DNA from: Pseudomonas oryzihabitans
Lineage (GTDB): Bacteria > Pseudomonadota > Gammaproteobacteria > Pseudomonadales > Pseudomonadaceae
Direction of reading: 5' to 3'
Assembly: GCF_006384975.1 (NCBI RefSeq)
Contig: NZ_CP021645.1
Location: forward strand, 4,554,001 to 4,618,000
DNA: 64,000 nt
Part shown: one piece after another, positions 39,767-57,402 of the stretch
Layout: the number at the start of each line of letters is the position of its first letter
Numbering within the stretch: position 1 is the first letter of the stretch
Notes under the pieces: generated by a model
What the model was told of the DNA's origin: nothing
The model's database searches: none
The model's input: the letters and a program-made list of their open reading frames with translations, nothing else
Translations under genes and position numbers: made by a program

Positions 39767-40474
39767 AACTTAACGCTTATTTTCCTGATAGGTCAGTTGA
39801 AGGCTGAATCGGATATGCTGCTGAGTGGACGTATTGCAATGGGCTTACCAGCAGCCAGTTTACAGCGCTGGTTTGCGGAGCAATGTTTGCTGACTTGAAC
39901 TGGGCTTGATCCTTCTCGCGCTCACTGTAGCGCTGTGTTGAAACCCTCAGTTAAACACTGCCACTCACCTGTGGCGCTCTGCGCCATGCAGGCTTTCCTT
40001 CTCTCCCGCCCGCCCTCTACTCGCCTGTTTTACCTCGCGCTCTAGCCCATTGCTGTTCCGCTGCTATGTGGCTGTCACACCATGGCGGCTCGTGCCTCCG
40101 CAGTCCTGCCAAGGGACACATCTCGGTCTTTACAACTAAGTCCCTCCATCACCAATTGGCTTGGGCGAATGCCGTGTGATTGGCTGCTAAACCATGAGTC
40201 GAGGGGCGTGGCAGGTCAATTAATATGAAAAAAAGAGATGTAAAGGTATAAATAAATATCGCTAAAACTCCATTTTTATTGCCATTACCATCGGCTCAAA
40301 CAAGAGTGACTGGATGGGCAAGTTCAAGTACCACCCTAATCCCGAGCGGTCGTTGGTATCGTGAGTCTTAGCGGCATCATGGTTCACAGCGTCCTCGGAA
40401 AATCTTGTGATTTCTCTGCCAAAAATGGCTTTGTTACTGAAGCTGCCCCTACAACAGCACACAAGAGAAAGAGC
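39767..40474. other. Long leader region before the MFS transporter gene
   Basis: About 700 bases of composition unlike the core have no supported gene. A short minus-strand frame covers the end of it but has no recognisable domain. The last 270 bases are AT-rich and hold one copy of ATCGCTAAAA (40258-40267). I see no transposase fragment or terminal repeat. Confidence 0.45.
40258..40267 (+). promoter_or_regulatory. ATCGCTAAAA motif, copy upstream of MFS gene
   Basis: The 10-base motif lies in an AT-rich context about 207 bases before the MFS transporter start. The same motif occurs before the RraA-aminotransferase and accB-accC units. A role as an operator for the block's LysR regulator is inferred from this recurrence. 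Confidence 0.45.
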
Positions 40475-41839
40475 ATGACTCATCAATCGAGCATTGCTAG
40501 TCGCCATACCGAGGCCAGTATCGCCAATCGGCTGGATCGGCTTCCCGTAGGTCGTTTTCATTACCGGCTTATCTTCATGATCGGTGCCGGTCTGTTTCTG
40601 GATTCGTTCGAACTCGCCCTGGCAGGCAGTGTTCTAGGCGCGCTGCTGGCGGAGCAGTGGAGCACGTCGCAGCTCAATGCATGGTTCATCTCGGCTACTT
40701 TCATGGGATTCATCGTCGGAGCATGGGCTTCAGGTGTGCTTGGTGATCGAATTGGCCGTCGATACTGCTATCAGATCAACCTGGCCATCTTTGGTCTGGC
40801 CTCCATCGCTGCAGTTTTCGCCCCCAACATGTATGTGCTGATTGCCCTGCGCTTCATCATGGGGATCGGTCTGGGTGGTGAGTTGGTGCTGGGCTTTGCC
40901 ACGTTGAGCGAATTCGTGCCGCCTCACAAACGAGGCCGTTTGGTCGCCTTCCTCTCGTTCATCGCCCAGTCGGCGCTGTTCGTTGCTGGTGTATGCGCCC
41001 TGTGGGTGATTCCGAACCTGGGTTGGCGTTGGATGTTTGGCATTGCCGGTGTGGCTGCCATCATCATTTGGGCGATGCGTAAGAGCATGCCAGAGTCGCC
41101 TCGCTGGCTGGCGTCCAAAGGTCGCTACGAGGAGGCAGATGCCATCGTTTCGGCTGCAGAAAAGGCAATGAATGTCGAACCCCCGGTCGAGCAAGTACAG
41201 CCGCAGAAAACCGAGACGCCGCCATTGCAGGCCACCATTGGTGATCTATTCCAGAAAGGCCAGCGTTCCAAGATGGTTGTCGGCATCGCCATCATGATCA
41301 CCATTCAGGTCTGTCTGTACGGCCTGGTCAGTTGGTTGCCCTCGTTCTTTGTTCAGCAGGGGCTGGGAATCGTGAAGTCGCTGCAGTGGAACATGATCAT
41401 GAGCTTCGGTGGCCCGGTTGGTGGTTTGATCGCGCTAGCACTGGTCGACCGTGTAGGGCGCAAACCCTTGCTAGTCTGCGCAGCGTTGTGTGCGGCCTTG
41501 CTCGCCGGTATCTACGTCACCCTAGCCGAGGAGACTGCGCTGATCGCGGTTGGCTTCTTGCTGATCAGTTCGATCTACACCATTGTCGTGGTTGGTCAGG
41601 CTATCTATGTCTCTGAGCTGTTCCCGACCCGGTTGCGCATGCGTGGCACCGGTACCTGCAGCGCCATCGCACGTCTGTTCGCAACCATGATTCCCTTTGC
41701 CATTCCGGCGCTGTTCGCGTTGGGCGGGATCAAGCTGGTCATCGGCATCGTCGGTGTAGTGCTGCTGGTGTTCTCCCTGATCATTCTGTTCCTCGGTCAA
41801 GAAACCCGAAAGCAGTCGCTCGAAACCATCAGCAACTAA
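40475..41839 (+). CDS. MFS (sugar/acid:proton symporter-type) transporter
   Basis: This 454-residue protein has 12 transmembrane segments and the MFS loop motif GDRIGRRYC between helices 2 and 3. The PESPRWL motif between the halves and GRK-type loop in the second half are those of the sugar porter/AAHS-like families. It would import an organic solute. It opens an operon-like run with OprD, pxpB, pxpC, a carrier protein and pxpA. The ATG at 40475 is chosen over an upstream in-frame start that lacks homology. Confidence 0.88.
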   Translation: MTHQSSIASRHTEASIANRLDRLPVGRFHYRLIFMIGAGLFLDSFELALAGSVLGALLAEQWSTSQLNAWFISATFMGFIVGAWASGVLGDRIGRRYCYQINLAIFGLASIAAVFAPNMYVLIALRFIMGIGLGGELVLGFATLSEFVPPHKRGRLVAFLSFIAQSALFVAGVCALWVIPNLGWRWMFGIAGVAAIIIWAMRKSMPESPRWLASKGRYEEADAIVSAAEKAMNVEPPVEQVQPQKTETPPLQATIGDLFQKGQRSKMVVGIAIMITIQVCLYGLVSWLPSFFVQQGLGIVKSLQWNMIMSFGGPVGGLIALALVDRVGRKPLLVCAALCAALLAGIYVTLAEETALIAVGFLLISSIYTIVVVGQAIYVSELFPTRLRMRGTGTCSAIARLFATMIPFAIPALFALGGIKLVIGIVGVVLLVFSLIILFLGQETRKQSLETISN

Positions 41840-41952: not shown

Positions 41953-43206
41953 ATGCACAAGTTCAACTCATACAGAGCGGTTGCAACGCTCTCCGCATTG
42001 ACCGCTGCGGCACTGGGCACGCCTTCCTGGGCCTTTGCTGATTTCCTCGCTGACAGCAAGGCCAGTCTCGAAGCTCGCAATCTGTATTTCAACCGCGACT
42101 TTCGCCAGCCGGGCGGCAGCTCCGCCAGTGGGCAAAGCAAGGCCGAAGAATGGGGCCAGGGGTTCATCCTGCGCAGCGAGTCCGGCTATACCGAAGGCTC
42201 CATCGGTGTCGGCGTCGATGCCATCGGCATGTTTGGCATGAAACTGGACTCCAGCCATGACCGTGCAGGAACTGCGCTGTTTCCCACTGGCAGCGATGGC
42301 AACTCTCAGGACAATTATTCCAAGCTGGGCGTAACGGCCAAGGCCAAGGCGTCCAACACAACGCTGAAAGTCGGCGCGCTGATCTTCCGCAATCAGATGC
42401 TGTTGTCGCCTGACGGTCGCTTGCTGCCGCAGATGTTTCGCGGTGCGATGATCGAGTCCAATGAAATTCAGGGTTTGAGTCTGCAGGCGGCACGAATCAA
42501 GGACGCCATGCCGGCGCAGTCCGGGCATTGGGACAAGATGAGCGCCAACCGAATTGGCGGTCAGGGCGATGCCTACAGCTTTTATGGCGGCGACTACGCG
42601 CTCGACAAACAGAGCACTCTCGGCTTGCACTATGGTGAGCTTGAGGATGTATTTCAGCAGGTCGTAGTCAATGCCAGCAGAACCTTTATGCTGGGCGACG
42701 CCAGCTCGTTGAAGGCCGATGTGCGTTATGCGCAGAGTCAGGAAGACGGCAACTTCCGTGATATCGACAACAAGGCATTCGGGGCGATGCTGACTTATCG
42801 TCTGGGCGCGCAGGCATTTGGGTTGGGCTACCAGAAGATGCGTGGCGACGATCCTTATCCATACGTGGCCAATAGCGATCCTTATCTGGTCAACTTCATT
42901 CAGATCAGTGACTTCGCCAACGTCAATGAGCGCTCCTGGCAGGCCCGTTATGATCTGGACTTCGCCACTCTTGGCGTTCCAGGGCTGAGTTTCATGACCC
43001 GCTACGTGAGCGGTGATCAGGTACAGCTGGCCGCTGGCGGTACAGGCAAGGAGTGGGAGCGTAACACCGACATCACCTACGCCTTCCAGAGTGGCCCACT
43101 GAAGAACCTTTCGCTGCGCTGGAGGAATGCCACCGTGCGTTCGTCTTTCGGCAACGATCTGGATGAGAATCGCCTGATCGTTCAGTACATGATTCCGCTG
43201 CTCTGA
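41953..43206 (+). CDS. OprD-family outer membrane porin
   Basis: This 417-residue protein has a signal peptide (about 1-29, cleaved near AFA-DF). The OprD-type start FLADSKASLEARNLYFNRDF follows, and the remainder is beta-strand-rich, ending in an aromatic-poor IPLL. OprD/OpdK porins let specific small carboxylates or amino acids through the outer membrane. With the MFS transporter it would form a full uptake route for the block's substrate. Substrate not predictable from sequence. Confidence 0.9.
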   Translation: MHKFNSYRAVATLSALTAAALGTPSWAFADFLADSKASLEARNLYFNRDFRQPGGSSASGQSKAEEWGQGFILRSESGYTEGSIGVGVDAIGMFGMKLDSSHDRAGTALFPTGSDGNSQDNYSKLGVTAKAKASNTTLKVGALIFRNQMLLSPDGRLLPQMFRGAMIESNEIQGLSLQAARIKDAMPAQSGHWDKMSANRIGGQGDAYSFYGGDYALDKQSTLGLHYGELEDVFQQVVVNASRTFMLGDASSLKADVRYAQSQEDGNFRDIDNKAFGAMLTYRLGAQAFGLGYQKMRGDDPYPYVANSDPYLVNFIQISDFANVNERSWQARYDLDFATLGVPGLSFMTRYVSGDQVQLAAGGTGKEWERNTDITYAFQSGPLKNLSLRWRNATVRSSFGNDLDENRLIVQYMIPLL

Positions 43207-43366: not shown

Positions 43367-44026
43367 ATGAATACTCCGCAGTTTCATCGCATGGGCACTC
43401 GGGCGATTCTCGTCGAGTCACAACAGCCGCAGGCCGACGTACGAACCCAGCAGGTCTATTGGGCCTTCGATCAGCTAGCTGCAGGTCTGTTTGGCCTGGT
43501 CGAATCGGTACCCGGCATGAACAACCTGCTGTTGATCTTTGAGGCCATGGAATACCGTGAAAACGCATTGGCAGATTTGCACCACTATTGGGGCCTGAGC
43601 ATTGAGCAGAGCAGCGCCCGCGATGCTCGGCAGGTCACTGTCGGCGTCCTATATGGCGGCGCGCACGGGAAGGATCTGCCGACCCTCGCCGAACGCGCGC
43701 AGTTGTCAGTCGATGAGTTTGTTATGCGTCACGCCGCTGCCGAGTACACGGTGTTCTGCCTGGGGGCTCACCCAGGCTTTGCATATTTGGGCGGCTTGCA
43801 TGAATCCCTGTATGCGCCTCGACAGAGCGCTCCACGGCCTCAAGTCTCGGCTGGCAGCGTCGCAATCGGTGGCAGTCAGACTGGGGTCATTGCTGCCAAC
43901 ATGCCCAGCGGCTGGAACCTGATCGGCGCAACGGACACGGTATTTTTCGACCACCGCAACGAACCGCCTGCGTTGCTTGCACCAGGTGACAGGGTTTGCT
44001 TCGAAGTACGAGGGATCGAAGCATGA
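43367..44026 (+). CDS. pxpB: PxpB / KipI-like (allophanate hydrolase subunit 1) protein
   Basis: This 219-residue protein of the AHS1/CT_C_D family includes FCLGAHPGFAYLGGL and the IGGSQTGVIAANMPSGWNLIG segment typical of PxpB. In PxpABC it helps cleave 5-oxoproline with ATP; the same fold is one half of the urea carboxylase carboxyltransferase domain. Its stop overlaps pxpC (ATGA). The neighbouring biotin genes suggest it may be part of a biotin-dependent enzyme and not a plain 5-oxoprolinase. Confidence 0.88.
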   Translation: MNTPQFHRMGTRAILVESQQPQADVRTQQVYWAFDQLAAGLFGLVESVPGMNNLLLIFEAMEYRENALADLHHYWGLSIEQSSARDARQVTVGVLYGGAHGKDLPTLAERAQLSVDEFVMRHAAAEYTVFCLGAHPGFAYLGGLHESLYAPRQSAPRPQVSAGSVAIGGSQTGVIAANMPSGWNLIGATDTVFFDHRNEPPALLAPGDRVCFEVRGIEA

Positions 44027-44961
44027 TCGAAATCATCAAATGCATGCCGGGCTGTACCGTGCAGGATGCCGGACGTTTTGGCTACCGCCGTCTCGGGGTT
44101 GGCAGTGCAGGGGCGATGGATGGGCTGGCACTGGCCGCCGGCAATATTCTGTTGGGTAACGACGCGCACGCTGCCGCGCTTGAGATCATCTTCTTCCCCC
44201 TGGAAATCCGCTTTCAGGAGGATTGCACATTTTCCGTTACCGGTGCCGGTCAGGCTGTGCTCGATGGCCAGGCGCTTCCAAGCTGGTGGAAAGGCACAGC
44301 CAGAGGTGGGCAGCTCCTGCGCCTGGAAAGCGCCGGCGGTGGTGGCATCGGCTACCTGTGTCTGGCAGGTGGTATAGCGGTCGAGAGCGTACTCAAATCT
44401 GCCAGTACCGACCTCAAGGGGGTGTTCGGTGGTCTGCAAGGACGCATGCTGAAAGTGGGCGATGTACTCGCCGTGCATCCTCGGACTGTTTCTGTCTATG
44501 CCGGCGATTTTGGTGCTGTGCCCTACGAGAGTGGGCAAGGTGCCTTGCGGGTGTTGCCTGGTTTCGAGTTCGCCGCGTTGCCTGAGGCGATGCAGGAACA
44601 GATGTTCAGCAGCAACTGGCAGATATCGCGACAAAGCAACCGCATAGGCTTTCAACTGGAAGGGCCACGAATGAAATTCGACGTGCCGGTCGAGCTGCTT
44701 TCCTACGGGGTTCTGCCGGGGCTCATCCAGCTTCCACCCAGCGGTCAGCCGGTAGTCATGCTTGCCGATGCCCAGACCTGTGGTGGCTATCCACGACTTG
44801 GCACGCTGATCGACAGCGATCTGCGGTGGCTCGCGCAGTCGGCGCCGGGCTCAAGTATCCAGTTACGAATATGCACCCTGGAAGAGGCCGCTGAAGCCGA
44901 GGCCAGTGAGCGCCAATACTTGGCCCGCCTGAGCCGCATGCGTGAGGTCGTCTGCCCATGA
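44023..44961 (+). CDS. pxpC: PxpC / KipA-like (biotin-dependent carboxyltransferase family) protein
   Basis: This 312-residue AHS2/CT_A_B family protein has the family blocks QDAGRFGYRRLGVGSAGAMD, GGIGYLCLAGGI and LADAQTCGGYPRLG. It is the partner of PxpB, and its fold forms the other half of the urea carboxylase carboxyltransferase domain. Its start overlaps pxpB and its end overlaps the carrier-like gene, so all three are translationally coupled. Confidence 0.88.
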   Translation: MIEIIKCMPGCTVQDAGRFGYRRLGVGSAGAMDGLALAAGNILLGNDAHAAALEIIFFPLEIRFQEDCTFSVTGAGQAVLDGQALPSWWKGTARGGQLLRLESAGGGGIGYLCLAGGIAVESVLKSASTDLKGVFGGLQGRMLKVGDVLAVHPRTVSVYAGDFGAVPYESGQGALRVLPGFEFAALPEAMQEQMFSSNWQISRQSNRIGFQLEGPRMKFDVPVELLSYGVLPGLIQLPPSGQPVVMLADAQTCGGYPRLGTLIDSDLRWLAQSAPGSSIQLRICTLEEAAEAEASERQYLARLSRMREVVCP

Positions 44962-45383
44962 ACTTCAGTGAAATACGCGAGATCTGCCAGTGCTTTGCCA
45001 AGAGTCAACTGAGTGAGATCGAGTACCGCGATAGCCATTCGAGCCTGCGCCTGCTACAGGACGCAGCGGCCAAGCCGGTAGCGAGCTCACCGGTTTCCGT
45101 GACGCCAGTTATGGCTTTGCCGACAGTGTCGACGGCGATGCTGATCAAGAGTCCGCAAGTGGGCCATTTCCTGGTCGCTCACCCGAGCAAGGCTACGGCC
45201 TGTGCCGGGGCTGGCAGCTTGGTGCGTAAGGGCGACATCGTTGCCTTTCTTCAAGTTGGGCCGCTACTTTTTCCGGTCAGATCGGATGTCGACGGCACCA
45301 TCGATAGCATTCTCGTAGAGCCCCAGACGCTCGTTGAATACGCGACGCCTCTGTTTAGCCTTTCACCAGTTCGGAGTCTTTAA
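44958..45383 (+). CDS. AccB-like biotin carrier protein lacking the biotinylation lysine
   Basis: This 141-residue protein aligns gap-free over its C-terminal domain with the AccB homologue at 49648. It keeps VGHF, RKGDI, GTI and TPLFSL, but EAMKM has become QVGPL (residues 99-103), so the biotin-accepting lysine is a proline. The AccB-type N-terminal helix is also recognisable. It overlaps pxpC and adjoins pxpA. It may be a structural subunit or hold another role; by sequence it cannot be biotinylated at the normal site. Confidence 0.85.
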   Translation: MNFSEIREICQCFAKSQLSEIEYRDSHSSLRLLQDAAAKPVASSPVSVTPVMALPTVSTAMLIKSPQVGHFLVAHPSKATACAGAGSLVRKGDIVAFLQVGPLLFPVRSDVDGTIDSILVEPQTLVEYATPLFSLSPVRSL

Positions 45384-46163
45384 ATGAAAACCATCGATCT
45401 TAACTCCGACATGGGCGAAAGCTTCGGCCCATACACCATGGGTGACGACGCTGCTCTGCTGGAGATCGTAACCTCGGCCAACGTCGCCTGCGGTTTTCAT
45501 GCCGGTGATCCCCTGGTTATGCGCGACACCGTCACCAAGGCAATCAGCGAGCAGGTGGATATCGGCGCGCATCCGGGTTTCATGGACTTATGGGGGTTCG
45601 GGCGTCGGCAGATTCCTGGCCAGCGCCCCGAGGACGTCGAGCAGATCATCGCCTACCAGATCGGCGCGCTACAGGCCGTGGCCAGGATGCACGGCGCACG
45701 GGTCACCCACTTCAAGGCCCATGGTGCATTGGGCAACATGGCGGCGGTCGATGAGGATCTTTCCATGGCCATCGTCAATGCCGTAAAGGGCGTCGCGCCC
45801 GAACTGATCTTCGTGATTCCCCCCTACAGTCTGACCGAGCGAGTCGCTGAGCGGGCAGGACTCAAGGTAGCCAGGGAGATCTTCGCCGACCGCGCTTACG
45901 ATGACAGCGGCTACCTTCTTTCCCGAAAGCTGCCTGGTGCGGTGATCCATGATCCAGATATCGCAGCGCAGCGGGTTGTGGATATGGTTGAGAGCAACAC
46001 TATCACCACGGTCAGCGGCAAGAAGCTACCTGTGCTAATCGACAGCATCTGCGTGCATGGCGATTCTGCCGAGTCGGTTGCGATGGCTGCTAGGGTCAAG
46101 GCTGAGCTGCAAAGCAACGGCTGGCAGTTAGAGCCCCTGAGCCGCCGTCAGGCATTCGCCTAA
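45384..46163 (+). CDS. pxpA: PxpA / LamB-YcsF family protein
   Basis: This 259-residue protein has the family's N-terminal IDLNSDMGESFGP, SANVACGFHAGDP, IGAHPGFMD and FKAHGAL segments, whose His and Asp residues form the active site. PxpA opens or hydrolyses the phosphorylated 5-oxoproline lactam in PxpABC. It starts right after the carrier-like gene and closes the operon at a good terminator. Confidence 0.92.
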   Translation: MKTIDLNSDMGESFGPYTMGDDAALLEIVTSANVACGFHAGDPLVMRDTVTKAISEQVDIGAHPGFMDLWGFGRRQIPGQRPEDVEQIIAYQIGALQAVARMHGARVTHFKAHGALGNMAAVDEDLSMAIVNAVKGVAPELIFVIPPYSLTERVAERAGLKVAREIFADRAYDDSGYLLSRKLPGAVIHDPDIAAQRVVDMVESNTITTVSGKKLPVLIDSICVHGDSAESVAMAARVKAELQSNGWQLEPLSRRQAFA

Positions 46164-46229
46164 GGGCGCCATAAGGCCCGTTAATCAGTGGCGGTTTAGT
46201 TGCTGGTCGTACTGCATGTCTTTCTCGCC

Positions 46230-46253
46230 AAGCCCGGTCTTTCCGGGCTTTTT
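46230..46253 (+). terminator. Terminator after pxpA
   Basis: AAGCCCGG and CCGGGCTT pair perfectly around a five-base loop and are followed by TTTCG. It lies 67 bases after the pxpA stop. Confidence 0.85.
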
Positions 46254-46355
46254 CGTTATTGATCGCTTCTACGCCAGTAGTGCGAGCGGGCCATTCGTCC
46301 CTATTAGGTGGCTTGCCGCAAGGCGCTGATGAGGCACTGGATAGACAATTGAAGC

Positions 46356-46398
46356 ATCGCTAAAAGTGTTCTTTTAACTTAATTAAATATCGCTAAAA
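46356..46398 (+). promoter_or_regulatory. Two ATCGCTAAAA motifs, direct repeat 33 bases apart
   Basis: Perfect copies lie at 46356-46365 and 46389-46398, spaced 33 bases start to start (about three helical turns), in an AT-rich promoter region 67 bases before the RraA-like gene. Same-face repeated half-sites fit a LysR-type tetramer. Assignment to the LysR gene at 48572 is inference. Confidence 0.55.
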
Positions 46399-46464
46399 AA
46401 GATTTATATCTCTTCCTATGATTGCGGCAAGTCCCACAATAAAACTGACCCCATAGGTATCCAA

Positions 46465-47109
46465 ATGAGCTTGCCAGGCCAACGTATTTTCCCCGCAGCG
46501 CAACCGGCATCAAACGACGTGATCCAGGCACTGCAGAGCGTCGTGACTCCCCACCTTAGCGACAACATGGCTCGCCACATCGGCATCAAGGGCCTGAAGC
46601 GCTACAACACCACCGGAAAGCTGGTCGGTACGGCACTGACAGTTAAGACTCGTCCAGGTGACAACCTGTTCATCTATAAGGCGCTGCCCCTGATTCAGCC
46701 TGGCCATGTGCTGGTGATCGACGCTCAGGGCGACACCAACAACGCAGTGATTGGCGAGCTGATCAAGCTGTATGCGCAAAGTCGTGGCTGTGTAGGTTTC
46801 ATCGTCGACGGTGCTATTCGTGACGTTGCCAGTTTTACGGATGTGCCTTGCTACGCGCGTGATGTGATCCATTGCGGCCCTTACAAATCGGGCCCTGGCG
46901 AAATCAACGTGCCGGTCAGCATTGGCGGTCAGATCATTGAGCCTGGTGACATCATCGTTGCCGATGAAGACGGCGTGGTGAGTTTTCCCCAGGCTCATGC
47001 CGAGGAGTTGTTGCGCCTTGCTACACGCCATGCCGCCATCGAAGAGGACGTCAAGGCGGAAATCGCCAGTGGCGCCAAATCTCAAAGCTGGCTCGACAAG
47101 TATCTCTAA
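46465..47109 (+). CDS. RraA-family (DlpA-like aldolase / decarboxylase) protein
   Basis: This 214-residue RraA-fold protein is longer than E. coli RraA. It keeps the substrate-site motifs PGDNLFIYKAL and VDGAIRD (Arg-Asp), which in HMG/CHA aldolases and oxaloacetate decarboxylases bind the divalent metal and keto acid. It probably cleaves or decarboxylates a keto acid. The aminotransferase gene follows 37 bases later. Confidence 0.85.
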   Translation: MSLPGQRIFPAAQPASNDVIQALQSVVTPHLSDNMARHIGIKGLKRYNTTGKLVGTALTVKTRPGDNLFIYKALPLIQPGHVLVIDAQGDTNNAVIGELIKLYAQSRGCVGFIVDGAIRDVASFTDVPCYARDVIHCGPYKSGPGEINVPVSIGGQIIEPGDIIVADEDGVVSFPQAHAEELLRLATRHAAIEEDVKAEIASGAKSQSWLDKYL

Positions 47110-47146
47110 CGCCCCGATAGCTGACTTTCAGCGGACAGGAAATCTC

Positions 47147-48346
47147 ATGCTTCTCTCGCATCGCCTGAATCAGATCAAACCTTCGCCAAGCATTGCCGCC
47201 AATGCCTTGGTGACCGAGCTGCGCAAACAGGGCCGGGATATCGTCAACTTCACCATCGGCGAACCCGACCTAGATACTCCAGCGCATATCGTCGAGGCGG
47301 CGATCGTTGCCCTGCGTGCCGGTGATACTCATTACACTGCCGCTGCTGGGACGCTGGAAGTGCGTCAGGCCGTTGCCGAGAAGCTTCAGCGTGACAATCA
47401 CCTCGATTACGGCCTTGATGAAATCGTGGTAGGTGTTGGTGGCAAGCACATCATCTATCATGCGTTCGCCGCCACGCTCAATGCCGGTGACGAAGTCATC
47501 GTGCACGCCCCGTACTGGGTGTCCTACCCAGACATCGCCGTGCTCAACGAAGGCGTGCCAGTACTCATCGAGGGTAATGAAGCCAACGGCTTCAAACTGA
47601 GTCCAGAAGATCTGGCCAAGGCGATTACCGATCGCACCAAGTGGGTAGTGCTCAATTCGCCGAATAACCCCAGTGGCGCGGTCTACAGTGAGGAAGAACT
47701 GCTCGGTTTGGCCGAGGTTCTGCGCCAGAACCCTCACGTGCTGGTTCTCTCTGACGAGATCTACGAGCACTTCGTTTTCGGTAAGAAGCGCCACCTGTCG
47801 CTGCTCAACGTTGCCCCTGATCTCAGGGCTCAGACTCTGGTGCTCAATGGTGCGTCCAAAGGCTATGCGATGACCGGTTGGCGCATTGGCTTCGCGGCTG
47901 GCCCCAAGACGCTGATCGCGGGTATCACCAAGCTGCTGTCGCAGACGACCACCTGCCCGGCCTCGGTAAGCCAAGCCGCTGCAGTCGCGGCTTTCGCGGG
48001 CGATCAGATGCCCGTAATGAAGATGCGCGACATCTATGATACGCGCCGCCAAGTGATGCTCGGCTGGTTGAGTGAGATTACTGAACTGACCTGCGTTGCG
48101 CCGGATGGCGCGTTCTATGTTTTCCCCAACGTCTCGGGGCTGCTTGGCAAGCGCACTCCGGATGGCCAGAAGATCGCTTCGGACAATGATGTGGTGACGT
48201 ACCTGCTCAATGAGGGCGGTGTCGCTACCGTCAGTGGCAGTGCCTACGGCATGTCGCCGTACATTCGCCTGTCGTTCGCCACTAGTTCGGACACGATCAA
48301 CGAGGGTATGCGCCGTCTCAAGCAGGCCATTGAGCAGTTGCGCTGA
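47147..48346 (+). CDS. Class I/II pyridoxal-phosphate aminotransferase (AspC-like)
   Basis: This 399-residue fold-type I aminotransferase resembles AspC-1b aspartate/prephenate aminotransferases. The PLP lysine is about residue 238 (NGASKGYAMTGWRIGF); SPNNPSG and the C-terminal SGSAYG..YIRLSFA arginine are present. It would make or use a keto acid for the RraA-like partner upstream. It ends at a strong terminator. The substrate is not certain. Confidence 0.92.
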   Translation: MLLSHRLNQIKPSPSIAANALVTELRKQGRDIVNFTIGEPDLDTPAHIVEAAIVALRAGDTHYTAAAGTLEVRQAVAEKLQRDNHLDYGLDEIVVGVGGKHIIYHAFAATLNAGDEVIVHAPYWVSYPDIAVLNEGVPVLIEGNEANGFKLSPEDLAKAITDRTKWVVLNSPNNPSGAVYSEEELLGLAEVLRQNPHVLVLSDEIYEHFVFGKKRHLSLLNVAPDLRAQTLVLNGASKGYAMTGWRIGFAAGPKTLIAGITKLLSQTTTCPASVSQAAAVAAFAGDQMPVMKMRDIYDTRRQVMLGWLSEITELTCVAPDGAFYVFPNVSGLLGKRTPDGQKIASDNDVVTYLLNEGGVATVSGSAYGMSPYIRLSFATSSDTINEGMRRLKQAIEQLR

Positions 48347-48438
48347 TCAAACCAGTGTAATGCTCCCCTGATTGCTATGAGCTGCCGGGCTAATTGGCCC
48401 GCAGCTCACGCAATGTCTTTCGCAACCTCCTTTCTCTA

Positions 48439-48459
48439 CCGGCCTCAGGCCGGTTTTTT
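48439..48459 (+). terminator. Terminator after aminotransferase gene
   Basis: CCGGCCT and AGGCCGG pair around a single C, followed by six T. A classic intrinsic terminator, about 93 bases after the aminotransferase stop. Confidence 0.9.
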
Positions 48460-48571
48460 ATGCGCCGAAACCACGCCAACCTGCAGGCAGGCATCTCAAA
48501 GGCTTGTCGGCCTTGTGTGAGAGGATTAGCGTGCTTGGAATCTTCGCTTTTCTTCATTTAAGGCTGTGCAA

Positions 48572-49474
48572 ATGATCACTTTCAAGCAACTCGAAGCGCT
48601 CCATTGGATCGTCGAGCTGGGCAGCTTCGAGGCTGCCTCGATCAAACTGAACATGTCGCAATCGGCGATTTCTAAGCGTGTTCATGAAATGGAAGAAGCC
48701 TTTGACATCCAGATCTTCGACCGTACCAAGCGTAGTGCCCGTCTGACCGAGAAGGGCGCGGAGCTCCTAGAGTATTCGGCTGACCTGTTGCGCCAACGAG
48801 ATTTCCTCCTTGAGCGGATCAGCTCTCAACATGTGCTGGTGCGCCGCTTTCGTCTGGGGGTGACTGAGTTGACGGCGCTTACATGGCTACCGGCACTAGC
48901 CGAGAGCATCCGTGAGGCGTATCCGCGTCTGGTTCTGGAGCCGTCGGTGGAGTTGAGTACCGAGCTGTTCAAGAAGCTGGAGGCGGATCAGCTTGATCTG
49001 ATTATCGTGCCTGACATCTTCGAAGATGCGCGCTTCGTTTCCACTCCGTTGAAAAGTGTAGAGAACGCCTGGATGTGCGCCCCCCATCTGCATCAGGGCG
49101 ACACCGTGGTGCCACTTGCCGACCTTTCTGAGTTCACTGTGCTCACTCAAGGGGGCAGCTCGGGAACTGGTCTGATCTATGAACGCTGGTTTGCTCAGCA
49201 CAGCGTCTCGATCACGCGCACGTTGATCAGTAATTCGCTGGTTGCCCAGCTTGGCTTCACCCTGTCAGGGTTAGGCGTGAGTTACCTGCCTAAGGCCTGT
49301 ATGGCTCCCTTGTTAAATCAGAATCAACTTAGGGTCATCGAAACTAGGCCGCGACTTCCTCATGTTCGTTACGCGGCGGTGTATCGCAACGACCGCGTTC
49401 TTGGTTTAACGATCGAGATCGCCAAGCTGGCCACTGAGTGCTGCGATTTCAATCGCATGCTGTTGCAAGGTTGA
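48572..49474 (+). CDS. LysR-family transcriptional regulator
   Basis: This 300-residue LysR protein has a winged helix N-terminal domain (about 1-60, FKQLEALHWIVELGSFEAASIKLNMSQSAIS). A CysB-like effector domain follows. It sits inside the block between the aminotransferase and accB-accC units and is the likely regulator of the ATCGCTAAAA sites. ATG at 48572 is chosen over an in-frame GTG six bases upstream. Confidence 0.9.
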   Translation: MITFKQLEALHWIVELGSFEAASIKLNMSQSAISKRVHEMEEAFDIQIFDRTKRSARLTEKGAELLEYSADLLRQRDFLLERISSQHVLVRRFRLGVTELTALTWLPALAESIREAYPRLVLEPSVELSTELFKKLEADQLDLIIVPDIFEDARFVSTPLKSVENAWMCAPHLHQGDTVVPLADLSEFTVLTQGGSSGTGLIYERWFAQHSVSITRTLISNSLVAQLGFTLSGLGVSYLPKACMAPLLNQNQLRVIETRPRLPHVRYAAVYRNDRVLGLTIEIAKLATECCDFNRMLLQG

Positions 49475-49540
49475 TCGGGGAGCCGCGATGTAGGCAGCCT
49501 GAATTGGTGCCTTAACTCATGAATAAAACTATTGATTTAG

Positions 49541-49561
49541 ATGCTAAAAATATCGCTAAAA
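49541..49561 (+). promoter_or_regulatory. ATGCTAAAAA + ATCGCTAAAA motif before accB
   Basis: A perfect ATCGCTAAAA (49552-49561) is preceded 11 bases earlier by the near-copy ATGCTAAAAA (49541-49550). The pair lies about 87 bases before the accB start in an AT-rich stretch and matches the motif before the other two units of the block. Confidence 0.5.
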
Positions 49562-49647
49562 ATACTGTTCAGGGCTTCTAGAATGGCTCCACTACCACGC
49601 CTCGCAAAGGCGTCAGCCATCTAATCAATGCACAAGAGGCCCGTGCG

Positions 49648-50097
49648 GTGGATATTCGCAAAGTCAAAAAACTGATCGAGCTGCTGGAAGAGTCGAGCAT
49701 CGACGAATTGGAAATCCGTGAAGGTGAAGAGTCCGTGCGTCTGCGTCGCAGAGGCGTAAAACTGCAGCCGCTACCGGCCCCTATCGATCACTCTCTACCT
49801 GCTACCGCCCGCGACATCGTCGCCGCGTCGCTGCCAGTGGAGGCGCCAGTCAATGCGCCAGTTGGCAACCTGGTACTTTCACCAATGGTCGGCACCTTCT
49901 ACCGTTCCTCATCGCCTTCTGCAGCGTCGTTCGTCGCAGAGGGGCAAAGCGTCAAGAAAGGCGACATCCTTTGCATCGTTGAAGCGATGAAGATGATGAA
50001 CCACATTGAGGCCGAAGCCAGTGGAGTGATCAGCAAGGTACTGGTCGCCGACGGCGAGCCCGTCGAGCACGGTCAGCCGTTGTTTGCACTGGCTTGA
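49648..50097 (+). CDS. accB: Biotin carboxyl carrier protein AccB homologue
   Basis: This 149-residue carrier has a helical AccB N-terminus, a Pro/Ala linker (about 40-75) and a biotinyl domain with the biotin-accepting Lys115 in VEAMKMMNH. It is functional by sequence. The start is GTG, preceded by AGAGG; the ATG at 49628 is out of frame. In this setting it is probably a second, specialised carrier and not the housekeeping AccB. Confidence 0.92.
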   Translation: MDIRKVKKLIELLEESSIDELEIREGEESVRLRRRGVKLQPLPAPIDHSLPATARDIVAASLPVEAPVNAPVGNLVLSPMVGTFYRSSSPSAASFVAEGQSVKKGDILCIVEAMKMMNHIEAEASGVISKVLVADGEPVEHGQPLFALA

Positions 50098-50113
50098 GTA
50101 GGGAGTCGCCGAC

Positions 50114-51463
50114 ATGTTGAAAAAAGTCCTTATCGCCAACCGTGGCGAAATCGCCCTGCGCATCCTGCGGGCCTGTAAAGAGCTGGGCATCAAGACCGTC
50201 GCCGTGCACTCCACTGCCGACCGTGAACTGATGCACCTGGCCCTAGCCGACGAATCCGTGTGCATCGGCCCGGCGCCGGGCAACCTGTCGTACCTGAACA
50301 TCCCGGCGATCATCAGTGCCGCGGAAGTCACCGGTGCCACCGCCATCCACCCTGGCTACGGCTTCCTCGCGGAAAACGCCGACTTCGCCGAGCAGGTGGA
50401 AAACTCCGGGTTCGCCTTTATCGGCCCGAAAGCCGACACCATCCGCCTGATGGGCGACAAGGTGTCGGCCAAGGACGCCATGATCAAGGCCGGCGTACCG
50501 GTGGTTCCAGGCTCCGAAGGCCCGCTGCCGGGAGATGAAGCACAAGCCCTGCGCATCGCCCGTGCAGTTGGCTACCCGGTGATCATCAAGGCCGCTGGCG
50601 GCGGCGGTGGTCGCGGCATGCGCGTGGTGTGGAAGGAAGAAGACCTGATCAAGTCGGCCAAGCTGACCCGCACCGAAGCCGGTGCCGCGTTCGGCAACCC
50701 GATGGTCTATCTGGAGAAATTCCTCGGCAACCCGCGTCACGTGGAAGTCCAGGTACTGTCCGACGGCCAGGGCAACGCCATCCACCTGTACGACCGCGAC
50801 TGCTCGCTGCAGCGCCGTCACCAGAAGGTGCTGGAAGAAGCCCCGGCTCCGCTGATCGACGAGAAGGCCCGCGCCGAAGTGCTGCAGCGCTGCGTCGATG
50901 CCTGCATCGAGATCGGCTACCGTGGCGCCGGCACTTTCGAGTTCCTCTATGAAGACGGTCGTTTCTACTTCATCGAGATGAACACCCGCGTGCAGGTCGA
51001 GCACCCGGTCACCGAAATGGTCACCGGCGTGGACATCGTCAAGGAGATGCTGAGCATCGCCGCTGGCAACAAGCTGTCGTACAAGCAGTCCGACATCAAG
51101 CTCATGGGCCATGCCCTGGAGTGCCGCATCAACGCCGAAGACCCGGATAACTTCATGCCGTGCCCCGGCAAGGTGAAGCACTTCCACGCCCCGGGCGGCT
51201 TCGGTGTGCGGGTCGACTCGCACCTGTACAGCGGCTACTCGGTACCGCCGAACTATGACTCGCTGATCGGCAAGCTGATCACCTACGGCGTGACCCGCGA
51301 TGAGGCCATGGCCCGGATGTGCAACGCCCTGGACGAGATCGTCGTCGACGGCATCAAGACCAACGTGCCGCTGCACCGCGATCTGGTGCGTGACAAGGGC
51401 TTCTGCGCGGGCGGCATCAATATCCATTACCTGGAAAAGAAACTGGGTATTGATAAGCACTGA
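50114..51463 (+). CDS. accC: Biotin carboxylase AccC homologue
   Basis: This 449-residue ATP-grasp enzyme carboxylates biotin with ATP and bicarbonate. Conserved parts are [17 protein letters not shown], the glycine-rich GGGGRGMR loop, and the metal/catalytic [14 protein letters not shown]. It is full length. It follows accB by 16 bases. Its GC-rich codon use looks closer to the core genome than its neighbours do, so it may have a different history from the rest of the block. It would charge the carrier for the PxpBC-type carboxyltransferase. Confidence 0.94.
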
Positions 51464-51759: not shown

Positions 51760-52080
51760 TTAGCGCACGCTGGCCCGTACCTTTACTCGGAAGCTGTTTT
51801 CATAGCCATCTTGTGCGTGAACCTTCTCTGCGAGAGTTGGTAGCGAGCTACGAGCGATGACGATGATGCCGTCCCGGTCTCCAATGATGGCATCGCCTGG
51901 GTAGCAGACTACGTTGCCACAAGCGACAGGAATTCCGACCTGGCCAGGGCCCCACTTCGATGGGCCAGCAGGGTTCACTGCACGGGCATAAACCGGAAGC
52001 CCCATGATGTTCAGCTCTTCAACATCACGAACTGCACCGTCAATGACCACTGCTGCAACCTGCTTGGCTTGTAGAGCGTC
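51760..52080 (-). pseudogene. Fragment of an RraA-family protein
   Basis: Coding from 52080 to the stop at 51760 gives the C-terminal half of an RraA-fold protein: VVIDGAVRDVEELNIMGLPV and PGDAIIGDRDGIIVI. The N-terminal half is replaced by unrelated sequence. It is a diverged relative of the intact gene at 46465, not a recent copy. It is truncated and probably inactive. Confidence 0.7.
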
Positions 52081-52541
52081 TGGCGGAGAGGTGCAGAGCC
52101 GAGGGGGCGAGTTAACCACCGGTTGATTTATGGAAAAGTCCTGCCGGACGGATCGAGAAGCGTGTGGAAAGCACGAACCAACCGACGCCGGAGCCGCGCT
52201 ATCGCTTGGGTTCAATACCTGTGATTTCGATCCCAGTGGTGGTTGAGCCGTTCAGTCCACGCCCCTGTCCATGACCCTCTGATGTCGAAATACGGCTTGC
52301 ACGCTGGTGAGATCTGGGGCGATTCATACTCTGCAGTCGGGACAACCTGATGAGCCTAAATGACTTATCGATTGCCCACGGAAGGAAAGACTGCATTGCC
52401 GAGTGCCCTACGAGCCCAACGGTTGGTGCACCAAAAATCTGGAGCTTTGCGGACTGGCATTAAAGGTTATGAAGTAGGGATGGCAGGTCTTGAAGCGAGG
52501 GAGATAAATCTTCTGGAGAGCCCGGATTTACTGGGCTTAAG
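52081..52541. other. Degenerate region between RraA fragment and tRNA-Gly
   Basis: About 460 bases with no recognisable gene. Short frames on both strands lack domains. It probably holds remnants from earlier insertions at this tRNA locus; I cannot identify a transposase or an integrase piece in it. Confidence 0.4.
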
Positions 52542-52615
52542 TGGCGCGGGTAGAGGGAATCGAACCCTCAACTAAAGCTTGGGAAGCTTTCGTTTTACCA
52601 TTAAGCTATACCCGC
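52542..52615 (-). tRNA. tRNA-Gly (CCC anticodon)
   Basis: Reading the minus strand gives a 74-base cloverleaf with acceptor GCGGGTA/TACCCGC. The anticodon stem AAAGC/GCTTT surrounds loop TTCCCAA (anticodon CCC), and the T-arm is GAGGGTTCGATTCCCTC. Discriminator G and an encoded CCA end the gene at 52542. It sits between the accessory block and the prophage, and its 5' end faces the integrase. Confidence 0.95.
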
Positions 52616-52657
52616 AATTCCGGTCTCAGCGGTGCATTAAACGAGGTTGTCCAATAA

Positions 52658-52686
52658 GAACCCTCGTCATGAGCTTGGGAAACTCT
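52658..52686 (-). repeat. Partial, degenerate copy of the tRNA-Gly core
   Basis: Without gaps and at a constant 96-base offset, this segment repeats GAACCCTC and AGCTTGGGAA from the neighbouring tRNA (T-arm and anticodon arm, 52562-52590), with mismatches between and after. It lies between the tRNA and the integrase. It could be part of an old attachment site; chance and a small hairpin (ACGAGG/CCTCGT) are alternatives. Confidence 0.4.
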
Positions 52687-52835
52687 GCCGCCTGCTATCT
52701 CAATCCATCTCTCCAGATTCCAGCCTGGCTCCAAACCCTTGTAGAATGCGGTGTTCATGCAAGGTTGCGGGTCCGGGGTCGTCTCAGCGGGTCTCACCTT
52801 GTTTCAGGCCAACTGTCACCGGGAACTGTCACCAG

Positions 52836-54032
52836 ATGCTCACCGAACGGCAGATCCGCGCGCTCAAGCCGCGGGAGAAGGACTATGTCACCTCCGATGG
52901 ACGCGGCGCGCGGGGGGAGGGGGTGTTGGTGCTCAAGGTGCGGCCCAGTGGCACCAAGGAGTTCTATTTCCAGCGCCATGTGGCTGGGGCGAAGAAGCTG
53001 ACCAAACTGGGCAACTGGCCGGCGTTGTCCCTGACCCAGGCGCGGGACAGGTGCCGGGCCGAGGCCGAGGTGGTGGTGAGCGCCGGCACCTTCCAGGAAT
53101 TGCTGTCGGCCTATGTGGCCAAGCTGGAGGGGGAGGGCGCGGCTTCGGCGGCTAACGTGGCCTGGTCGTTTCGCCATTATGTCAGCGAGCCCTTTCCGGA
53201 GTTGGTGCGGCGGCCGGCGGCGTTGGTGGGGCCGGCGCAGATCCGCGACATCCTCAGCCGCATGATCGACCAGGGCGTGACCACCTATTGCAACCGGCTG
53301 AGATCCCAGTTGCATGCGGCCTTCCAGGTGGGCCTGGAGCAGGAGTACAACCCGCGCAGCTATCTGCAGGTGAAGGTGCGCTTCGGCCTGCAGAGCAATC
53401 CGGTGGCGAGCATTCCGGTGCAGGAGGATTGGGAGCAGCCGGGCGACCGGGCCCTGTCGAAGGCGGAGTTGCGCACCCTGTGGCAGCTGTTGCCGGAGCA
53501 ACTGTCCCTGACCACCGCCGAGCTGATCCGCTTTCTGATCGCCGCCGGCGGGCAGCGGCCGGAGCAGTTACTGGCGTCGGAGCGGGCGCTGTACCAAGAC
53601 GACCACCTGGTGATCCGCAGCACCAAGGGCCGGGTGCAGGGCGAGCGGCAATTGCATGTGGTGCCCTTCAATGCGCCGATGCGCCAGGTGTTGCAGACCA
53701 TGGCGGAGATCGATGCCAACGGCGCCTATCCGTTCCAGGGCCGCGTGCCGGGGCAGCCGCTGAATGTGCAGTCGTTGTCGCGGGCGGTGACCAACCTCTA
53801 TCGCCGCCATGCCGCGGAGTTCACCGCGCCCTTCACCCTGCGCGACCTGCGGCGGACCTGCAAGACGCTGATGGCCAGCGCGGGCCTCAGCAAGGAATTG
53901 CGCGATCGCATCCAGGGCCATGCCTTCAACGATGTCTCTTCCAAGCACTATGACCGCTACGATTATTTCGCCGAGAAGCGCGCCGGCCTGGAGACCTGGG
54001 CGGACTGGCTAGAGAAACACATCATCCACTGA
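52836..54032 (+). CDS. int: Prophage tyrosine integrase
   Basis: This 398-residue tyrosine recombinase of the P4-type has an N-terminal arm-binding part (TERQIRALKPREKDY...). The catalytic domain shows Arg in GGQRPEQL, the RDLRRTCKT box and the C-terminal HAFNDVSSKHYDRY tyrosine. It inserts and excises the prophage, probably at or near the tRNA-Gly. The start at 52836 is used because homology begins there. Confidence 0.9.
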   Translation: MLTERQIRALKPREKDYVTSDGRGARGEGVLVLKVRPSGTKEFYFQRHVAGAKKLTKLGNWPALSLTQARDRCRAEAEVVVSAGTFQELLSAYVAKLEGEGAASAANVAWSFRHYVSEPFPELVRRPAALVGPAQIRDILSRMIDQGVTTYCNRLRSQLHAAFQVGLEQEYNPRSYLQVKVRFGLQSNPVASIPVQEDWEQPGDRALSKAELRTLWQLLPEQLSLTTAELIRFLIAAGGQRPEQLLASERALYQDDHLVIRSTKGRVQGERQLHVVPFNAPMRQVLQTMAEIDANGAYPFQGRVPGQPLNVQSLSRAVTNLYRRHAAEFTAPFTLRDLRRTCKTLMASAGLSKELRDRIQGHAFNDVSSKHYDRYDYFAEKRAGLETWADWLEKHIIH

Positions 54033-54041
54033 ACGCGCGCT

Positions 54042-54245
54042 TCAGGCCGCACCGTCGGCGCTCCAGCGCATGGGGTCGACCTGCCAGGCGGCGATCGCCG
54101 ATTCGCGCCAGCCGACGCGGCCGGCGCTGAGGTTCACCGGGCTGGGGAACTGCTTGGCCTTGATCGCCCGCCAAAGGGTGGCGCGCGACAGGGAGGTGAC
54201 CCGCAGCACCTCGTCCTCGCGCAGGAATCTATCCAGTTGGGCCAT
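54042..54245 (-). CDS. AlpA-family phage regulator
   Basis: This 67-residue protein has an AlpA/MerR-like helix-turn-helix (FLREDEVLRVTSLSRATLWRAIKAKQFPSP). Such proteins regulate integrase expression or act as excisionases in P4-like elements. It is convergent with int and lies downstream of the primase on the minus strand. Confidence 0.85.
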   Translation of the reverse strand: MAQLDRFLREDEVLRVTSLSRATLWRAIKAKQFPSPVNLSAGRVGWRESAIAAWQVDPMRWSADGAA

Positions 54246-54331
54246 GGTGCTCTATCTCCTCGGGTGGCCGGTACGGCCGGCGGCGGTCGGGGTACGCGAC
54301 GGCTGCCGCGGGGTGCGTGGGATGGCGTGCT

Positions 54332-57169: not shown

Positions 57170-57180
57170 GGGGTAGCGGG

Positions 57181-57402
57181 TCAAGGGTTCACCTGTGCAT
57201 CCGCGGTGAGCTCCCGTACCAGGCGCAGGGCACCCTGGGGCTGACGCTCGGCGTCGTGGGCGAGGATCTGGAAGCTGCGGGCGATTTCGCGCAACTGGGC
57301 GCAGCTGTAGGCCTGCTGCACCTGCAAGAGCGGCAGGTTGAAGACGATCCGCGGTGGCTGCTGGGGCTCGCGGGACAGGGTGACATCGAGGCACAGCTTC
57401 AC
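57181..57402 (-). CDS. Small phage protein of unknown function
   Basis: This 73-residue protein starts at a GTG whose first bases overlap the stop of the gene upstream (GTGA). It ends 11 bases before the primase start. A longer frame upstream has arginine-rich, non-coding-like composition and is not used. No domain recognised; the overlaps support its reality. Confidence 0.7.
   Translation of the reverse strand: MKLCLDVTLSREPQQPPRIVFNLPLLQVQQAYSCAQLREIARSFQILAHDAERQPQGALRLVRELTADAQVNP

Follow-up and report, generated by a model that had tools for sequence, protein, structure and literature searches.

The window, i.e. the whole stretch of 64,000 nucleotides that was analysed, lies in the closed 5.36 Mb genome of Pseudomonas oryzihabitans (G000:C1:4554001-4618000). 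It carries homologues of the 5-oxoprolinase subunits PxpA, PxpB and PxpC in one run, into which a gene for a carrier-like protein is inserted, and a separate pair of genes for a biotin carboxyl carrier protein (BCCP) and a biotin carboxylase (BC). PxpB, corresponding to subdomains C/D of a carboxyltransferase (CT), is encoded at 43367..44026 (+ strand); it matches PF02682 and passes the PxpB equivalog model TIGR00370 with 169.8 bits (cut-off 145.55). PxpC (CT subdomains A/B; 44023..44961, +) matches PF02626. The inserted gene (44958..45383, +) encodes an AccB-derived carrier paralogue of 141 aa, here called dBCCP, with 26.2 bits on PF00364 (cut-off 22.1). It is followed by a PxpA variant of the LamB/YcsF type (45384..46163, +; PF03746, 317.4 bits), which passes two PxpA subfamily models. 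ATGA start/stop overlaps join pxpB to pxpC and pxpC to dBCCP, and the TAA of dBCCP abuts the ATG of pxpA. Therefore, pxpB-pxpC-dBCCP-pxpA is a compact unit.

The biotin parts follow further downstream. AccB2 (49648..50097, +) is a biotinylatable carrier which keeps EAMKM and scores 161.6 bits on TIGR00531 (cut-off 115.2). AccC2 (50114..51463, +) is a biotin carboxylase of the acetyl-CoA carboxylase (ACC) type, with 741.3 bits on TIGR00514 (cut-off 626.5) and the domains PF00289, PF02786 and PF02785. It also shows the motif strings of biotin carboxylase catalysis. As the original prediction had it, the genes for PxpB, PxpC, PxpA, AccB, AccC, an RraA-like enzyme and an aminotransferase are all found on the + strand. 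Its description of a complete set of parts for a biotin-dependent enzyme also stands with respect to the parts, but it overlooked the non-biotinylatable dBCCP between pxpC and pxpA.

dBCCP, a carrier paralogue without the biotinyl lysine

The likeness to AccB spans the whole of dBCCP. Identity to the AccB of the block is 22.8% over 149 columns (E 5.8e-12), and positions 1-135 of a dBCCP profile (A3) match the E. coli BCCP chain 4hr7_B at E 1.6e-18. Each of the 31 members of a dBCCP alignment (A4) hits TIGR00531 with an E value of 0.001 or lower, the window dBCCP staying below the model's own cut-off (60.2 vs 115.2 bits). Based on the profile matches to solved BCCP chains, the fold is predicted to be of the BCCP type. 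CIVEAMKMMNHIE of AccB aligns to AFLQVGPLLFPVR of dBCCP, and residue 102 of the window dBCCP, at the place of the biotinyl lysine of ExMK, is a proline.

This loss extends to the whole family. In 149 rows, i.e. the 31 of the A4 alignment and 118 further proteins gathered by similarity to dBCCP, the column of the biotinyl lysine never holds a lysine (0/149). It holds D in 66 rows, E in 23, L in 12, N in 9, A in 7, H in 6 and G in 5, plus eight other residues. Since the rows were collected by similarity, one of the searches behind them listing the best 120 of 316 matches, these counts show consistency and not a rate of lysine loss. The neighbouring G is retained in 146/149 rows and an HP pair in 143/149. 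In comparison, 19 of 20 true BCCPs (P0016-P0035) have MK and one has MR. The dBCCP signature consists of HP and VGxLLxP, with residues that are invariant in the 31 sequences. Organism names among the best 120 of the 316 matches are Pseudomonas or Phytopseudomonas, except for P0152 from Rhodoferax koreense.

At the same loci, dN/dS was 0.15-0.24 for dBCCP (17 pairs), 0.10-0.23 for accB (13 pairs) and 0.05-0.16 for pxpA (13 pairs), the pxpA values being computed on frames taken from stop to stop, which in some cases add residues at the N-terminus. A decaying pseudogene was rejected on the basis of this purifying selection, the invariant residues and the consistent pattern in the lysine column. 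Several dBCCPs carry the database name acetyl-CoA carboxylase biotin carboxyl carrier protein, which is misleading on this evidence.

The PxpA proteins encoded beside dBCCP are altered as well. The motif KPHGAL(Y/F) is present in all 28 PxpA of control loci without dBCCP, and its Pro and Tyr/Phe are lost in all 21 dBCCP loci, with Pro replaced by A (4) or F (17) and Tyr by G (21/21). The window PxpA reads KAHGALGN and that of locus L146, discussed below, SFHAAMGN. PxpB shows P(S/N)GW in 20/20 dBCCP loci with pxpB and in 1/25 controls; the window PxpB reads PSGWN, compared to PGGW in most PxpB. P(S/N)GW was rejected as a marker of dBCCP loci, since the control L060 has it too. The differences of the PxpA motif and of P(S/N)GW from the controls suggest a substrate or chemistry other than plain 5-oxoproline opening, and plain 5-oxoprolinase activity of the locus is unlikely on these sequence features. 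The window PxpC shares 42-59% identity with its counterparts in the 20 other dBCCP loci. It scores 282.5 bits on the 5-oxoprolinase equivalog NF045499 (cut-off 500), a weak indication as the scale lacks a control PxpC.

Co-inheritance, distribution and biotin enzymes

In a search independent of dBCCP, with the PxpC of dBCCP locus L105 as query against 398 genomes of the family, 19 genomes reached 230 bits or more, the next one scoring 184.9. dBCCP is present in 19/19 genomes with this PxpC type. Conversely, at E 1e-13 the A3 profile matched at least 24 of the 398 family genomes more than once, namely the 19 and five others (G024, G112, G254, G377 and G405), in which the additional match retains MK. 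This profile search scored up to 10 candidates per genome among the matches listed, so a weak dBCCP elsewhere may escape it. In a PxpC tree of 52 rows with midpoint root, all 21 PxpC of dBCCP loci fall to the same side of a single branch (100/99), and the presence of dBCCP takes 1 change, compared to 16.6 in shuffles. Based on the 19/19 co-occurrence and this single branch, dBCCP belongs invariably to one PxpC lineage among the genomes sampled. The AccC partner varies; judged by its sequence, an AccC of other origin can occupy the same locus type.

The dBCCP loci number 21, from 21 genomes (the window, L064, L065, L096-L107, L138-L141, L145 and L146). They were compared to 31 PxpC loci without dBCCP, which came from the PxpC or A3-profile searches and are not a random draw; genomes G000, G006, G011 and G340 are in both lists. 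Gene counts refer to family-level matches at E 1e-5. The 21 dBCCP loci contain pxpC, pxpA and dBCCP in 21, pxpB in 20, and accC and a biotinylatable BCCP each in 19, the latter including the accB with EAMKM of L096. The controls contain pxpC in 31, pxpA in 28, pxpB in 26, accC in 12 and a biotinylatable BCCP in 11. The conserved co-occurrence that had been put forward as a check is thus observed, 19/21 loci of this pxp type holding both accC and a biotinylatable BCCP. In 14 loci (L097, L099-L107 and L138-L141), accB-accC-pxpB-pxpC-dBCCP-pxpA is contiguous. L064 stops at a contig edge.

The neighbouring genes follow a similar pattern. An aminotransferase is found in 18 of the 21 dBCCP loci, LysR in 18, SDR in 17, a family-3 solute-binding protein in 17, an ABC ATPase in 17, OprD in 16, MFS in 9 and RraA in 3 (the window, L145 and L146, the last also by Pfam). 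In the 31 controls, LysR (18) and ABC ATPase (12) matches are common too; SDR is found in 3, MFS in 3 and OprD in 1, and the aminotransferase, the solute-binding protein and RraA in 0. Among the full loci, L098 is closest to the window, with identities of 84% for LysR, 62% for accB, 80% for accC, 84% for MFS and 77% for OprD; in the pxp part these are 63% (pxpB), 58% (pxpC), 37% (dBCCP) and 81% (pxpA). RraA and the aminotransferase are absent from its 18 kb. Outside the family, dBCCP is found in L145, from another class of the same phylum, and in L146, whose class is the same. Among 398 genomes drawn by phylum, a dBCCP match at the strict threshold of E 1e-26 or better occurs in four (G000, G006 and the genomes of L145 and L146). 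L146 (G778:C1:457500-475500) holds RraA, a solute-binding protein, pxpB, pxpC, pxpA, an aminotransferase, LysR, dBCCP, SDR and an ABC transporter.

A second accB-accC pair adjoins prmA at C1:4.34 Mb of the window's genome, with an AccC 85% and an AccB 62% identical to those of the window. The window genes were therefore rejected as the housekeeping pair, as the original prediction required. The whole genome gives seven biotin carboxylase C-domain matches and 14 biotinyl/lipoyl matches, and it also encodes a urea-carboxylase-like protein of 1227 aa. PxpBC with biotin parts is not new in itself, nor is it peculiar to the window, since all four CT_A_B matches in the genome adjoin biotin-carboxylase parts. 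Two more such PxpBC clusters are present besides the window. L053 (G000:C1:1942000-1959000) has the order pxpA-sBCCP-accC-pxpB-pxpC (sBCCP being a small BCCP), with a carrier frame of 85 aa with EVMKQF and a PxpB with the urea-carboxylase Lys; by its sequence it appears to be a second, more urea-carboxylase-like split system. In L054 (G000:C1:4114000-4131000), AccC is fused to BCCP (587 aa) and PxpB to PxpC (537 aa), with an adjoining pxpA; this is a third architecture by which the genome connects PxpBC with biotin parts. ACC-type accBC is also found beside pxp clusters free of dBCCP (L036, L108-L110, L142 and L143).

In an AccC tree of 52 rows, 15 AccC of dBCCP loci form their own clade (100/100), and the AccC of the window and L098 fall inside the ACC-type clade with the prmA-side AccC. 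Because these two lie outside the clade of dBCCP-locus AccC, the window AccC appears to have been replaced or newly recruited, secondary to the pxp locus.

The MFS importer and OprD porin counted within the block are indeed present, but they lie just upstream of pxpB, ending at 43206. The MFS transporter (40475..41839, +, from its first ATG; in the open reading frame list it starts with a GTG at 40361) matches PF00083 with 174.3 bits and PF07690 (on 40481-41839), and has an 84% identical homologue in the syntenic L098. The OprD-family porin (41953..43206, +) scores 480.8 bits on PF03573. A terminator-like stem 3' of pxpA (46230..46250, +) is weak, the region having 11 sites compared to 10.8 in shuffles. 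Further downstream are an RraA-like protein of the aldolase/decarboxylase type (46465..47109, +; PF03737), a class I aminotransferase (47147..48346, +; PF00155 on 47144-48346) and a LysR-type regulator (48566..49474, +; PF00126 and PF03466). GC is 0.55-0.61 at 40-52 kb, compared to 0.60-0.71 for the remaining steps of 2 kb across the window. A second, shortened RraA-like reading frame is found at 51760-52215 (-). Near it, the region 52542-57394 holds a tRNA-Gly(ccc) (52542-52615, -), an integrase-like frame (Arm-DNA-bind_3; weak Phage_integrase) and a Toprim-containing frame of 1020 aa. Based on these features, a mobile element appears to have inserted at the tRNA-Gly(ccc) adjoining the block.

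Proposed function and rival explanations

By sequence, AccC2 and AccB2 are the parts to carboxylate biotin, and PxpB and PxpC supply the CT domains. From these parts and their co-inheritance, which are what was observed, we infer a reaction and its dependence on biotin. With about an even chance of being right, the block would encode a biotin-linked multi-subunit variant of PxpABC with a non-catalytic docking carrier like BADC, a non-biotinylated, BCCP-like subunit of the acetyl-CoA carboxylase of plant plastids. AccC2 would load CO2 on AccB2, and the carboxybiotin on AccB2 would be delivered to PxpBC. PxpBC might then activate an amide- or lactam-type compound, to be carboxylated and then hydrolysed (cf. 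urea carboxylase and allophanate hydrolase on urea), which the variant PxpA would open. The role of dBCCP would be that of a non-catalytic docking or assembly subunit joining AccC/AccB to PxpBC/PxpA, as BADC in its plant enzyme, and the aminotransferase and the RraA-like enzyme could take the product further. As the neighbours include a family-3 solute-binding protein (17), an aminotransferase (18) and OprD (16 of 21), the substrate is presumably amino-acid-like and taken from outside. At a guess from its family, the RraA-like protein would fit a 4-hydroxy-2-oxo acid produced by transamination, e.g. from a 4-hydroxy-substituted pyroglutamate.

Since dBCCP is kept both with an ACC-type AccC (window, L098) and without adjoining accBC (L146), it may be an adaptor which lets PxpBC/PxpA borrow any available AccBC. 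A broader proposal is more doubtful than the biotin-linked enzyme itself, though well worth considering: dBCCP would be a bacterial BADC, a long-kept obligate adaptor for lactam or amide carboxylation before PxpA, served by dedicated, borrowed ACC-type or housekeeping AccBC.

Several observations weigh against a biotin-linked enzyme. In the window, accB-accC stands apart from pxpB-pxpC-dBCCP-pxpA, with the RraA-like gene, the aminotransferase and LysR in between. The window AccC is 98% identical to the ACC-type AccC of another genome (G405; L117) and could, for that reason, serve fatty-acid synthesis. L146 has no accB/accC in its 18 kb, though its pxp genes and dBCCP are present, and its genome (G778) has only two biotin carboxylase matches, in frames of 461 and 1207 aa; its dBCCP may work with housekeeping AccBC or without any. 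The accC in 12/31 control loci shows that accC there needs no dBCCP. Related Pseudomonas supply most of the 21 loci, and the counts are therefore not independent events. Finally, Arg is found in 20/20 dBCCP-locus PxpB at a position where urea carboxylase has a Lys, so urea-carboxylase chemistry is not indicated.

These points include the case for another explanation, possible though on the unlikely side: PxpABC would be biotin-free and use ATP only, accB-accC would be an additional pair for acetyl-CoA carboxylase, and dBCCP a non-biotin subunit of PxpBC/PxpA, once borrowed from AccB. The separate position and ACC type of the window accBC, the locus L146, the Arg shared with E. coli YbgJ and the lack of an accC match in 19/31 control pxp loci would all be consistent with it. 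It is opposed by the accC in 19 of the 21 dBCCP loci, 14 of them with the contiguous run, by the separate clade of dBCCP-locus AccC and by the precedent of PDB 9yx5, described below.

The original prediction had called the block a split urea-carboxylase-like enzyme, for which the domain set of BC, BCCP and CT is indeed the same. According to the available part of PMC5770610, Lys1605 of the Kluyveromyces urea amidolyase is most likely the general base of its CT. This Lys, that of TKYNPSR (numbering counted on the alignment), is conserved in the urea-carboxylase-like protein of this genome as well as five PxpB of the sBCCP type, but is Arg in the window PxpB. On this position, a true split urea carboxylase was rejected and is very improbable, the genome already having the 1227-aa protein with the Lys; the low score on the full-length model was left unused, as it is beyond the reach of one subunit. 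The Arg is also found in 25/25 other control PxpB aligned (L054 included), in E. coli YbgJ and in the AHS1 chain of 9yx5. As that entry also lists AccA3, the Arg seems no bar to a biotin partner, and by these sequences it neither marks nor excludes one. A paper of 2011 (PMC3199775) pointed out split UCT genes, with no functional data on them in the available text.

Another possibility might be that dBCCP is a decoy regulator which competes with AccB for AccC and so links the pxp pathway with fatty-acid synthesis. For plant BADC, both a glue and an inhibitor role have been proposed in the accessible part of PMC11926652, and the AccB likeness of dBCCP includes the N-terminal part, as its match to 4hr7_B indicates. 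A decoy is nevertheless improbable, as dBCCP overlaps pxpC, abuts pxpA and follows the PxpC lineage, not the AccC type. Already disfavoured, and distinctly improbable, is a locus for plain 5-oxoprolinase in which the neighbours are accidental and dBCCP is a BCCP duplicate in decay. PxpB and PxpA do pass their equivalog and subfamily models, but the PxpA motif is changed in 21/21 loci, dBCCP is under purifying selection with residues invariant in 31 sequences, its loci form one PxpC lineage, and PxpC falls short on its equivalog, with the reservation on scale given above.

Comparison with known systems

The PxpABC 5-oxoprolinase of E. coli (YbgJ/YbgK/YbgL) has homologous subunits in one run, and YbgJ and YbgK (5dud) are the best solved-structure matches of the window PxpB and PxpC, YbgJ also sharing the Arg at the Lys1605 position. 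It differs in that the window adds dBCCP, AccB2 and AccC2 and has a PxpA without the KPHGAL(Y/F) of the 28 controls. In the available text of a study on growth of Corynebacterium glutamicum on 5-oxoproline by pxpTABC (PMC13274462), the word biotin appears twice, in a strain description and in a reference. Urea carboxylase (Kluyveromyces lactis 3va7/5i8i; the 1227-aa copy of the genome) likewise combines BC, BCCP and CT (PF02626 and PF02682). However, the window has separate proteins, no Lys1605 equivalent, and an additional PxpA and dBCCP.

The pxpA-sBCCP-accC-pxpB-pxpC clusters (L053, L040, L046, L047 and L048) also unite PxpABC homologues with BC and a small BCCP, which keeps MK (VMKQ, but VMKT in L048). 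They differ by a PxpB with the urea-carboxylase Lys, by the absence of dBCCP and by a PxpA with KPHGAL. Their P. aeruginosa counterpart is presumably PA0492-PA0496. The mycobacterial AHS1/AHS2 with AccA3 (PDB 9yx5) pairs PxpB/PxpC homologues with a biotin carboxylase/carrier subunit, its chain list giving AccA3 and allophanate hydrolase subunits 1 and 2; here, BC and BCCP are in one chain (AccA3, 598 aa). As this entry lists PxpB/PxpC homologues with AccA3, a physical link between PxpBC and the biotin parts is plausible by analogy. The block offers a bounded test case of whether CT proteins of the PxpBC type work with carboxybiotin.

Like dBCCP, plant BADC is a BCCP homologue that lost its biotinylation motif and stands beside a real BCCP and BC (all three in 19/21 loci in the case of dBCCP). 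In contrast, dBCCP is bacterial, tied to PxpABC genes and has its own signature, HP and VGxLLxP. Among the papers listed in literature searches, no title or start of an abstract describes a biotin-less BCCP of bacteria or such a gene set. According to the available text of PMC11926652, BADC is unique to plant acetyl-CoA carboxylase. If the proposed role of dBCCP is true, it would add to bacterial enzymes a non-catalytic, biotin-free carrier subunit, a feature which has been called unique to the acetyl-CoA carboxylase of plants.

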